A stretch of 5,038 nt of DNA, taken from the NCBI GenBank assembly GCA_022573935.1, contig JACZTE010000101.1, forward strand, positions 1-5,038. The letters run 5' to 3'. A program made the translations under genes and the position numbers. The DNA comes from Chloroflexota bacterium (GTDB taxonomy: Bacteria; Chloroflexota; Dehalococcoidia; DSTF01; RBG-16-68-14). This document shows, piece after piece, positions 535 through 5,038 of this stretch (the first letter of the stretch is position 1; every line of letters begins with the position of its first letter). The notes under the pieces were generated by a model. That model was not told where the DNA came from. It searched no databases and saw only the letters and a list, made by a program, of their open reading frames with translations.

Positions 535-623
535 ACGTCACCTGTAACCATAACGACCCTTCGCCGTTAGGTAGGGCAGGAGAGGAGATGCGGAGAGGCG
601 GGGCTCCTCACTTCACTCCACTT

Positions 624-652
624 GAGGCGCACCGACATAGTCGGGGCGCCTC
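624..652 (+). terminator. Strong hairpin, terminator- or attenuator-like
   Basis: GAGGCGCACCGAC (624-636) and GTCGGGGCGCCTC (640-652) form a 13-bp stem with a single A/G mismatch and a 3-nt loop, followed by the pyrimidine tract TCTCTTTC (653-660). This resembles an intrinsic terminator with a poor U-tract. The right arm can pair instead with GAGAGGCG at 593-600 (through CGCCTCTC, 647-654), so two exclusive folds exist, as in an attenuator. It lies between divergent genes, where no plus-strand gene needs ending, so its role is unclear. It ends about 60 bp before the mutase start. Confidence 0.4.
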
Positions 653-699
653 TCTCTTTCCCACCCGTACGCCTCGTGCTCCTGTCGACCCGCATCCGC

Positions 700-711
700 T
701 ATACTTTCCGC

Positions 712-712
<1 letters not shown>
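700..712 (+). promoter_or_regulatory. -10 box giving a probable leaderless mutase transcript
   Basis: TATACT (700-705) matches the -10 consensus at five of six bases and is followed by 6 nt and then the GTG at 712. The transcription start would fall on or next to the first base of the start codon. No Shine-Dalgarno precedes 712. The -35 region (about 676-682) is a poor match. Leaderless starts with this geometry are established in several high-GC bacterial groups; that this gene uses one is inference. Confidence 0.5.
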
Positions 713-2400
<1,688 letters not shown>

Positions 2401-2558: not shown

Positions 2559-2580
2559 CCGTTCGCCCCGGGGCGGACGG
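2559..2580 (+). other. GC-rich hairpin in the reductase leader
   Basis: CCGTTCGCC (2559-2567) pairs with GGCGGACGG (2572-2580), giving a 9-bp stem with one G-T wobble and the loop CCGG. It is not followed by a T-run, so it is a poor intrinsic terminator. It sits where a transcript from the candidate promoter at 2546 would begin, so it may stabilise or tune that mRNA. Function is unknown. Confidence 0.4.
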
Positions 2581-2581
2581 T

Positions 2582-2602
2582 GTTCCTAGTTCCATGTTCC
2601 TA
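2582..2602 (+). repeat. Three tandem heptamers GTTCCTA / GTTCCAT / GTTCCTA
   Basis: Three 7-bp units follow each other without gaps at 2582-2588, 2589-2595 and 2596-2602; the first and third are identical and the middle differs at its last two bases. They end 19 bp before the reductase start. They could be a binding site read in phase or chance low-complexity sequence. Confidence 0.35.
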
Positions 2603-2608
2603 ACGAAT

Positions 2609-2613
2609 GGAGG
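2609..2613 (+). promoter_or_regulatory. Shine-Dalgarno that sets the reductase start at 2622
   Basis: GGAGG (2609-2613) lies 8 nt before the ATG at 2622. The longer in-frame ATG at 2607 overlaps this motif and has no ribosome site of its own. The SDR fold begins directly after 2622 (MKRLDEQVAIVTGAS), so 2622 is chosen. Confidence 0.75.
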
Positions 2614-2621
2614 TTGGCAGG

Positions 2622-3365
2622 ATGAAGCGATTGGACGAACAGGTAGCGATCGTCACGGGCGCCTCGCGTGGCATCGGCCGGGCGGTAGCGAAGGAGCTGG
2701 CAGACTACGGCGCCGCCGTGGTCGTCAACTACTTCCAGAGCCAGGAGCCAGCCGAGGCGCTGGTGACTGAGATCACCGGCGGTGGCGGCAAGGCGATCGC
2801 CGTGCGCGCCAACGTGGGCGAGCCGGATGATGCCCAAGCGCTAGCAAAGCGCGCCCTGGACGAGTTCGGCCGGATCGATATCCTGGTGAACAACGCCGGC
2901 GTCAACCGCGACCGGAGCCTGCGCCGCATGTCGACGGAGGAGTGGCAGGAGGTGATCAACACCGACCTGAACAGCGCCTTCTACTGCACCTCCGCCGTCC
3001 TCCCCAACATGGTCGAGCGCAAGTACGGCCGCATCATCAACATGTCCAGCATCATCGGCCAGATGGGGAACGTCGGCCAGGCCAACTACGCCGCGGCCAA
3101 AGCGGGGCTCATCGCCTTAAGCAAATCCGCGGCGCAGGAGCTGGCTCGCTACAACATCACCGTCAACGCCATGTGCCCCGGCTTCATCGAGACGGACATG
3201 GTGATCGCCCTCAGCGACGAGGTGAAGGAGGCGCTGATCAGCCGCATCCCGCTCGGCCGCTTTGGCCGCCCGGACGAGGTCGCCGCCTTCATCCGCTTCC
3301 TCGTCACCGAGGGCGACTGGATCACCGGCCAGCAGTTCAACCCCAACGGCGGGATGTACATGTAA
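2622..3365 (+). CDS. fabG: FabG/PhaB-like short-chain dehydrogenase (3-oxoacyl-ACP or acetoacetyl-CoA reductase)
   Basis: The 247-residue product is a classical-size SDR, expected to reduce a 3-oxoacyl thioester to the 3-hydroxy form with NAD(P)H in the cytoplasm. The Rossmann motif TGASRGIG is at 12-19 and NNAG at 90-93. The catalytic Ser143, Tyr156 and Lys160 sit in MSSIIGQMGNVGQANYAAAK (141-160), PGFIETDMV is at 186-194, and the end NGGMYM is typical of FabG. The stretch GQMGNVGQANYAAAKAGL closely resembles FabG; PhaB acetoacetyl-CoA reductases share the same pattern, so ACP versus CoA substrate is open. The tetrad Asn, normally in a TNL motif, reads Asp115 (INTDL). It follows the mutase across a repeat-filled gap of about 220 bp, so it probably has its own promoter, and is likely co-transcribed with the kinase 44 bp downstream. 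Confidence 0.88.
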   Translation: MKRLDEQVAIVTGASRGIGRAVAKELADYGAAVVVNYFQSQEPAEALVTEITGGGGKAIAVRANVGEPDDAQALAKRALDEFGRIDILVNNAGVNRDRSLRRMSTEEWQEVINTDLNSAFYCTSAVLPNMVERKYGRIINMSSIIGQMGNVGQANYAAAKAGLIALSKSAAQELARYNITVNAMCPGFIETDMVIALSDEVKEALISRIPLGRFGRPDEVAAFIRFLVTEGDWITGQQFNPNGGMYM

Positions 3366-3396
3366 GCAGCCGCGACAGGCGAGATCGAGAGACAGC

Positions 3397-3403
3397 AGGA
3401 GGG
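3397..3403 (+). promoter_or_regulatory. Strong Shine-Dalgarno of the kinase gene
   Basis: AGGAGGG lies 6 nt before the ATG at 3410. It is the best ribosome site in the window, decides the start and supports a real gene here despite the odd downstream half. Confidence 0.8.
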
Positions 3404-3409
3404 TGCGCA

Positions 3410-4225
3410 ATGGCAACACGAAACATCCCGTCCGGTCCCCAAGAGATCACCCCTGAATGGCTCACGGACGCGCTTCGCGAGACCGGAGCGATCAAGCAGG
3501 CGACGGTCACGTCATTCGACATGGAGCCGGACATCGCGGCGGGAACCGGGTTCCTGGGAAAGCTCGCCCGGGTGAAGCCGCAGTACGACCGGCAAGAGGA
3601 GGGCGCGCCTCAGTCGATCATCGCAAAGTTCCCTACCCCCTCCGCGGAATGGCGCGCGATGGCAGACGGCTTCCGCTTCTACGAGATTGAGACTCGCTTC
3701 TATGAGGAGATCGCCGAGGAGGTGGAGCTCCGGACGCCGCGACGCTACTTCAGCCACTTCGACAGCGAGACAGGCGACTTCGTCCTCTTGCTCGAGGATC
3801 TCGCCCCCGCTCGCATGGGCGATCAGATGGCCGGCTGCACTCGCGCCGAGGCCGAGCTCTGCATCGGCAACCTGGCGAAGTTCCACGCGACGTGGTGGGA
3901 GAGCCCGCGCCTAGCCGAGATGGATTGGCTGCCAATGACGGCCGATCCCCTCAGGGCGCAGGTGCTGGAGGACAACTATCGCGAAGCGTGGCCGGCGTTC
4001 GCTGAGTACCTCGGCGATCGACTCTCCCCCGCCATGCGAGAGATCGGCGAGCGGTTCGGGCGATCTGTCCCCGCAATGATCGGCCGGTACAGCAAGCCGC
4101 CCCACACGATCGTCCACGGGGACTACCGCCTCGATAATCTCTTCTTCACGACATCTCAGGATGGTGACTCGCTCGCCGTCATCGATTGGCAGATCTCCTC
4201 TCGCGGCACCGGTGTATTCGACATC
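3410..4225 (+). other. Segment 1 of the chimeric frame: APH/CHK (ecdysteroid-kinase-like) phosphotransferase, C-terminally truncated
   Basis: Enzymes of this fold transfer the ATP gamma-phosphate to a hydroxyl on a small molecule in the cytoplasm; the substrate cannot be told from sequence. Visible motifs are a glycine-rich region GTGFLGKLARV (45-55), the probable ATP-binding Lys73 in IIAKFP, an N-lobe helix YEIETRFYEEIAEEV (91-105) with a candidate partner Glu, and the hinge-like FVLLLEDL (124-131). The catalytic loop HGDYRLDN (236-243) has Asp238 as base and Asn243 for metal, and the metal-binding Asp259 is in VIDWQ. The family pattern continues through SRGTGVFDI (264-272), after which a further helical part of the C-lobe is expected. 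Instead the sequence changes family. Relatives are usually some 330-370 residues, so roughly the last quarter is missing. It follows the reductase by 44 bp, likely in one operon. Confidence 0.8.
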
Positions 4226-5038
4226 CTGGTGGAGACCGATGAACCGGAAGCACTGTTCAGACCTCGCTTCCTTAAGAAAATCGAGGCGTTTCAGCGTGTT
4301 ATCGAAAGCCACGGTATCGTTGGCGGTACGACATCCGTAGTCGATTATCTCAAGCAGATGAATCGATCATTAAACGAAGGAAATAGTGAAGAATATCGCC
4401 TCATCGACGATGAGCAGCTGAACGCGCAGTTGTTCCTGCTCTATTCAACGACAGGCGATCCAACGGACCTCGAGGAAGAAATTGATTATGACTATCAACG
4501 GGCCAACATTCGCGTCAATTTAAAAAGTCCGAGCTACCAGGAACTCAAACCCGTAATCGCTTCATTGAACGAGTATATAGAGGCGGAATTTAACGAACCG
4601 GGGTTAAAAGCCACACTCAGCGGTGCGGCAATGGTCTTCTATGAAATGACGGATTCAGTGGGGAAAAGCCACTTCAATAGTGTGCTGATTTCATTAATCC
4701 TTGTGCTCTTCATGGCGACGATTGTTTTCCGTTCAGTCGTTGCAGGTTTGATGTCGCTTACTCCGGTAGCAATCTCCATCCTCTTCGTCTACGCCGTGAT
4801 GGCGAATTTTGGAATCAGTATTGGAATTGGGACGTCGATGTTCGCATCAATCTCTATAGGCCTTGGTGTGGATTTCGCGATCCATACTATCGATCGTGTG
4901 CGCGACTTGTATAAAAACAGTTCTGATGATGATTACGTCATGCTGGCACTCTTTCCATCAACCGGTCGGGCGCTTTTTTTCAACCTGCTTGCTCTCGCCT
5001 GCGGCTTCGGCGTCTTGATAACTTCAGAAGTTGTACCC
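3410..5038 (+). CDS. Chimeric reading frame: APH/CHK-type kinase fused in frame to an RND/MMPL exporter fragment (3' end off window)
   Basis: From the ATG at 3410, with its strong Shine-Dalgarno, the frame is open for exactly 543 codons to the window edge. Residues 1-272 are a protein-kinase-fold small-molecule phosphotransferase cut before the end of its C-lobe. Residues from about 273 on are RND exporter sequence, starting within the first extracytoplasmic domain and without its first membrane helix. No linker, stop or frameshift lies between them. In a 20-codon sample from the kinase part (residues 101-120) 19 codons end in G or C; in residues 384-403 only 10 do. Two incomplete domains meeting at one point, with a composition change, suggest a chimeric contig or a recent illegitimate join more than a functional fusion. 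The two segments are described separately. Confidence refers to the open frame, not to a working protein. Confidence 0.6.
   Translation, partial: MATRNIPSGPQEITPEWLTDALRETGAIKQATVTSFDMEPDIAAGTGFLGKLARVKPQYDRQEEGAPQSIIAKFPTPSAEWRAMADGFRFYEIETRFYEEIAEEVELRTPRRYFSHFDSETGDFVLLLEDLAPARMGDQMAGCTRAEAELCIGNLAKFHATWWESPRLAEMDWLPMTADPLRAQVLEDNYREAWPAFAEYLGDRLSPAMREIGERFGRSVPAMIGRYSKPPHTIVHGDYRLDNLFFTTSQDGDSLAVIDWQISSRGTGVFDILVETDEPEALFRPRFLKKIEAFQRVIESHGIVGGTTSVVDYLKQMNRSLNEGNSEEYRLIDDEQLNAQLFLLYSTTGDPTDLEEEIDYDYQRANIRVNLKSPSYQELKPVIASLNEYIEAEFNEPGLKATLSGAAMVFYEMTDSVGKSHFNSVLISLILVLFMATIVFRSVVAGLMSLTPVAISILFVYAVMANFGISIGIGTSMFASISIGLGVDFAIHTIDRVRDLYKNSSDDDYVMLALFPSTGRALFFNLLALACGFGVLITSEVVP
4226..5038 (+). 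other. Segment 2 of the chimeric frame: RND-superfamily (MMPL/HAE3-like) exporter, internal fragment
   Basis: RND/MMPL proteins are inner-membrane, proton-driven exporters of lipids or hydrophobic compounds, normally some 750-1000 residues with two repeats of six helices and large extracytoplasmic loops. Here the extracytoplasmic loop begins at LVETDEPEAL (273-282) and continues with SVVDYLKQMNRSLNEGN (309-325), the family pattern NAQLFLLYSTTGDP (338-351) and IDYDYQRANIRV (358-369). Membrane helices follow at about 424-440, 445-466 and 473-491, the last with the signature GLGVDFAIH (484-492: Asp488, His492). A further helix starts near 521 (ALFFNLLALACGFGVLI). The usual N-terminal cytoplasmic start and first helix are absent, replaced by kinase sequence, and the C-terminal half lies beyond the window. 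Lower GC and relaxed codon choice set it apart from the genes to its left. Confidence 0.8.

Follow-up and report, generated by a model that had tools for sequence, protein, structure and literature searches.

The kinase-exporter fusion encoded at the 3' end of the window (the whole stretch of DNA that was analysed, 5,038 nucleotides) most likely results from a join made in the laboratory or by the assembly and is not a new protein. The window is very probably a chimeric contig, in which Chloroflexi DNA with the gene order mutase, SDR-family reductase and kinase has been joined to a gammaproteobacterial piece of an RND exporter gene within positions 4205-4225. The two parts have different origins, and the switch between them lies in this short zone. 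The window is regarded as chimeric because its left part matches the Chloroflexi MAG G001 at 98% and 95% while the best relatives of its right part are gammaproteobacterial, because a sharp switch of identity and a step in GC3 occur and each of the two genes is incomplete at the join, and because no other locus or protein examined has both parts.

Gene content of the window

Two genes of the Chloroflexi side precede the fusion, all genes lying on the forward strand: a methylmalonyl-CoA mutase large-subunit-like gene (622..2400; PF01642, 1.7e-219) and an SDR-family reductase gene resembling FabG or acetoacetyl-CoA reductase (2607..3365; PF00106, 4.4e-63). The TTG start of the mutase gene at 622 is mechanical, and the matches in other genomes cover 772-2400. 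The best two NCBIfam matches of the SDR gene lie under the equivalog cut-offs. The 5' part of an EcKL/APH-type kinase gene (3410..4204, residues 1-265), which Pfam as well as protein and DNA identity place on the Chloroflexi side, is followed by the join zone (4205..4225, residues 266-272, codons G-T-G-V-F-D-I), which is delimited by the ends and starts of BLASTN matches and fits both parents. The remainder (4226..5038) comes from the middle of an RND/MMPL (HAE3-like) exporter gene and belongs to the gammaproteobacterial side.

The first-pass annotation had described one open frame that leads from a kinase directly into an RND/MMPL exporter, and this description was correct. The frame at 3410-5038 comprises 543 codons without a stop and is open at the 3' end of the window, so that the exporter's own end lies beyond it. 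In the 543-aa protein, Pfam recognizes EcKL at residues 45-273 (7.3e-17), APH at 92-272 and MMPL at 361-540 (6.3e-15), and all named motifs are found at the residues given for them, i.e., HGDYRLDN at 236-243, DW at 259-260, GVFDI at 268-272 and LVETDEPEAL from 273.

It should also be noted that an element whose ends are perfectly inverted over 15 nt, and which is dispersed in G001, is present at 2412-2510 and takes at least 28 of the 43 matches between the window and that MAG (40 of 182 candidates scored). From its appearance this element may be REP- or MITE-like.

The kinase part is of Chloroflexi origin and truncated

The scores of 62.1 bits for PF02958 (EcKL; cut-off 22) and 45.5 bits for PF01636 (APH; cut-off 23.2) make the left part of the fusion a member of the kinase family. 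Residues 1-272 are 91% identical to P0002, the best kinase match, and Dehalococcoidia is the organism in all four organism-named kinase matches (P0022, P0050, P0091 and P0105), both statements applying to the best 120 of 2216 matches at E <= 0.001. At the DNA level, G001 is 98% identical over 534-2296 and its locus L001 is 94.5% identical to 2578-4225, while three further genomes (G004, G005 and G006) reach 81-86% in the mutase region (772-2401). The mutase, SDR and kinase genes lie together on one contig in G004-G006 and occur in the same order over two contigs in G001; the gene order around the SDR gene is that of the window in G001 and in three other Chloroflexi genomes.

The claim that the kinase lacks the end of its C-lobe was confirmed, as its relatives among the matches listed are mostly 365-370 aa long and nine of the nine aligned ones extend beyond the join. 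The family match ceases after residue 272, short of a complete C-lobe, and the EcKL profile is covered to position 258 of 294, compared with 287 in P0002. The kinase of L001, in contrast to that of the window, is intact, i.e., it reaches its stop at 1955 and has 368 aa. Downstream of it lies a gene whose product has hydrolase and cyclase domains, and the kinase gene of G004 is followed by one for a 455-aa cyclase-domain protein that is 59% identical to this neighbor in L001.

The window kinase also has a weak match (5e-05) to PDB 3dxp, an entry named putative acyl-CoA dehydrogenase. Our guess, by analogy with ACAD10/11 as described in excerpts of two publications (PMC11342911, PMC12440821), is that the kinase might have a role in hydroxyacyl-CoA phosphorylation.

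The exporter part is of gammaproteobacterial origin and truncated

The right part belongs to the RND/MMPL proteins, with 55.4 bits for PF03176 (MMPL; cut-off 20.5); the 95.9 bits for NCBIfam TIGR00921 lie under its whole-protein cut-off of 351.9. Separate searches with the two halves, which had been proposed in the first-pass annotation, led residues 1-272 to the kinases described above and residues 270-543 to RND/MMPL proteins, the best match being the gammaproteobacterial P0121 with 82% protein identity (best 120 of 685). The DNA identity is highest on this side for L002 (71% over 4205-5037), and the values for the genomes G002, G003 and G007 are 71%, 68% and 68%, respectively. Reciprocally, the best stretch of an RND counterpart in G001 is merely 28% identical, and the kinase part is absent from the four matches listed for G002.

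The exporter had been said to be incomplete at the join through the loss of its first membrane helix and start. The truncation is real, but it is much larger, comprising about 457 residues and thus the N-terminal half and more. The piece aligns from residue 458 on of the intact 1047-aa RND-LolA-like protein of L004, the HAE3 profile match begins at position 455 of 733, and of the two RND repeats, which would begin with a membrane helix, the second is the only one represented. In a crude hydrophobicity scan, which can merge segments and does not yield a helix count, no hydrophobic segment appears upstream of residue 417 in the fusion protein (P0001), compared with six before residue 458 in the L004 protein.

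These observations bear on the possibility that the protein is a natural, selected fusion of a cytoplasmic kinase with half of an RND exporter, a possibility to which we assign a very low probability. While the frame is open and neither set of conserved motifs is damaged ahead of the join, the protein lacks half of the RND fold as well as the C-terminal part of the kinase, the codon composition shifts at the join, and no relative with this architecture exists among the matches listed and the loci examined. Moreover, the loop in question lies extracytoplasmically in RND proteins and, according to the crude scan, would be left in the cytoplasm by the fusion. The topological problem of a kinase feeding into an extracytoplasmic domain had been recognized before and is genuine; nevertheless, it is beside the point, as the protein probably does not exist.

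Intact single-chain relatives of the exporter are encoded within 4732-9143 in L003 and within 4642-9097 in L004, each with a DUF1302 gene downstream of it, and the L004 protein contains two MMPL stretches followed by a LolA-like domain. In Castellaniella, according to an excerpt of the respective report (PMC6394551), AmeA (DUF1302) and AmeB (LolA superfamily, DUF1329) are separate proteins that have been tied to monoterpene metabolism together with the RND transporter AmeD.

The switch point and the shared codons

The kinase-side BLASTN matches stop at 4225 in four of the seven loci that reach past 4100, and at 4206, 4206 and 4195 in the others; the RND-side matches begin at 4205 in L002 and L003 and later in the other loci. 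The ungapped identity to L001 is 54/60 at 4145-4204, 16/21 at 4205-4225 and 15/60 at 4226-4285, and the corresponding values for L002 are 18/60, 16/21 and 44/60, so that beyond the 21-nt zone the identity to the relative of the wrong side is at chance level.

The composition changes as well. GC3 is 0.913 in the mutase and SDR genes, 0.816 in the kinase part and 0.539 in the RND part, and the GC content is 0.641 in the kinase part versus 0.476 in the RND part. GC3 changes most clearly at codon 276 (position 4238), with a log-likelihood gain of 26.2 compared with a maximum of 10.8 in 2000 shuffles. By composition alone, however, the point is loosely placed: codon 241 is hardly inferior, and codons 241-270 have a reduced GC3 of 0.67; we have counted this early dip against a chimeric origin. 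The composition step supports two sources. Thus, similarity and composition change abruptly at one point, and the halves on its two sides stem from unrelated organisms, Chloroflexi on the left and Gammaproteobacteria on the right.

At the join site, 120 kinases mostly have G-R-G-V-F-D-V and 119 RND proteins mostly G-T-x-x-L-D-I, while the nearest RND relatives (P0121, P0123, L003 and L004) have G-T-S-V-F-D-I. That the frame is open across the join follows from the codon register, which is common to both families at G-x-x-V-F-D-I, so that a join at any point of this stretch preserves the frame. The short shared sequence that had been postulated at the join is present; however, it is not limited to the 9-nt ttcgacatc and may comprise up to 21 nt (4205-4225). 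The exact parents are not among the sequences found, and the nearest relatives agree with the window at 16 of the 21 positions, so that the shared run may be shorter than 21 nt.

The residues encoded at 4208-4213 are a peculiarity of the zone. Residue 267 is T, which occurs more often than any other residue in the RND set (57/119) and is outside the seven commonest of the kinase set; residue 268 is G, which is found in 119 of the 120 kinases and is outside the seven commonest of the RND set. The order T267-G268 is the reverse of that expected for one clean switch between typical sequences, and it counts against a chimera; ordinary variation in one of the parents would yield it.

A join at a sequence that both families share is compatible with microhomology repair and with a technical event alike, and from the sequence alone the two look the same. 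A real, non-functional illegitimate recombination might thus have taken place, in which one Chloroflexi strain acquired a gammaproteobacterial RND fragment within its kinase gene by microhomology. We consider this improbable, since it requires the interphylum transfer of a startless gene piece that has kept the composition of its donor, and nothing similar is present in 148 genomes of the class of the Chloroflexi relative (among the matches listed) or in 93 loci. It appears very unlikely that an interphylum join inside the G-x-x-V-F-D-I codons common to both families has given one Chloroflexi strain a real recombinant gene from which an in-frame protein with kinase and RND parts is made. The first-pass annotation had favored an artefact or a recent illegitimate recombination, and this preference is supported by the two phyla, the switch within 4205-4225 and the lack of this architecture in everything else that was examined.

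Search for the same architecture in other genomes

A search for other genomes with the same architecture had likewise been proposed. Of 106 stretches confirmed in a species collection, 80 were retained as loci; 9 contain the kinase part and 71 the RND part, none contains both together, and none of the 71 RND loci has a match to kinase residues 1-265. Neither do any of the 93 loci compared in total, some of which are second copies of one place, combine kinase and RND parts. Among 240 retrieved proteins, both motif patterns occur solely in the window's own P0001 and in none of the 239 others, so that neither loci nor proteins provided the architecture in an independent genome. The whole-protein search revealed no second protein labelled with both families (best 120 of 1306), and the 90% cluster of the fusion protein consists of one sequence from one contig of 5038 bases.

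At the genome level, none of the 148 genomes of the class of the Chloroflexi relative (95 with a match) and none of the 95 genomes of the order of the gammaproteobacterial relative (89 with a match) covers both parts fully among the matches listed. Some RND matches do reach upstream of the join, namely to query residue 173 (L067) and 205 (G158). In viral contigs, eight stretches fit a pattern and none of them encodes a relative.

One candidate was rejected. In G126, a genome of the Chloroflexi class, a long frame around a kinase (855 aa from the start codon) could have been a natural fusion, but Pfam recognizes only the kinase (EcKL at 538-791, DUF1679 at 722-808) and nothing upstream of it. 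An overlapping same-strand frame of 884 aa starts the likely neighboring gene.

Discussion

The chimeric nature of the contig would be explained most simply if DNA of two members of a mixed community had been joined technically at a sequence common to both, be it in amplification, in library making or in assembly. With the join located within the in-register G-x-x-V-F-D-I codons, the frame would have stayed open automatically.

That a frame continues through a join is thus weak evidence for a fusion protein, because unrelated families that share a few in-register codons keep the frame for free. This is of practical relevance, as the fused record (P0001) is already present in a protein database, where it figures as a multi-domain protein and carries the Pfam labels of both families, and it could be taken wrongly for a new architecture.

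Each of the two parts has well-defined natural counterparts. Up to residue 272 the protein is an ordinary member of the Dehalococcoidia EcKL/APH-type kinases (P0002-P0005 and others), with the HGD and DW motifs, but it differs from them in that about 95 C-terminal residues have been replaced. Residues 266-543 align to the second RND repeat of the gammaproteobacterial RND(MMPL)-LolA-like single chains (L003, 1045 aa; L004, 1047 aa; P0121), with up to 82% identity, but the first 457 residues of these proteins are lacking, and their LolA-like C-terminal part would lie past the window end.

As a whole, the window resembles chimeric metagenome contigs and amplification chimeras, with which it shares the two unrelated genomes, the short shared sequence, the truncated genes and the composition step. 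Chimeric contigs in metagenome assembly are the subject of two studies (PMC8171044, PMC7881036), and most MDA chimeras have overlaps of 5-8 nt according to an excerpt of a third (PMC4595205). With up to 21 nt, the compatible zone exceeds this length, which counts against a chimera, although the true overlap may be shorter. The window is set apart by its shared codons, which are in register, and a frame of 543 codons survives the join.
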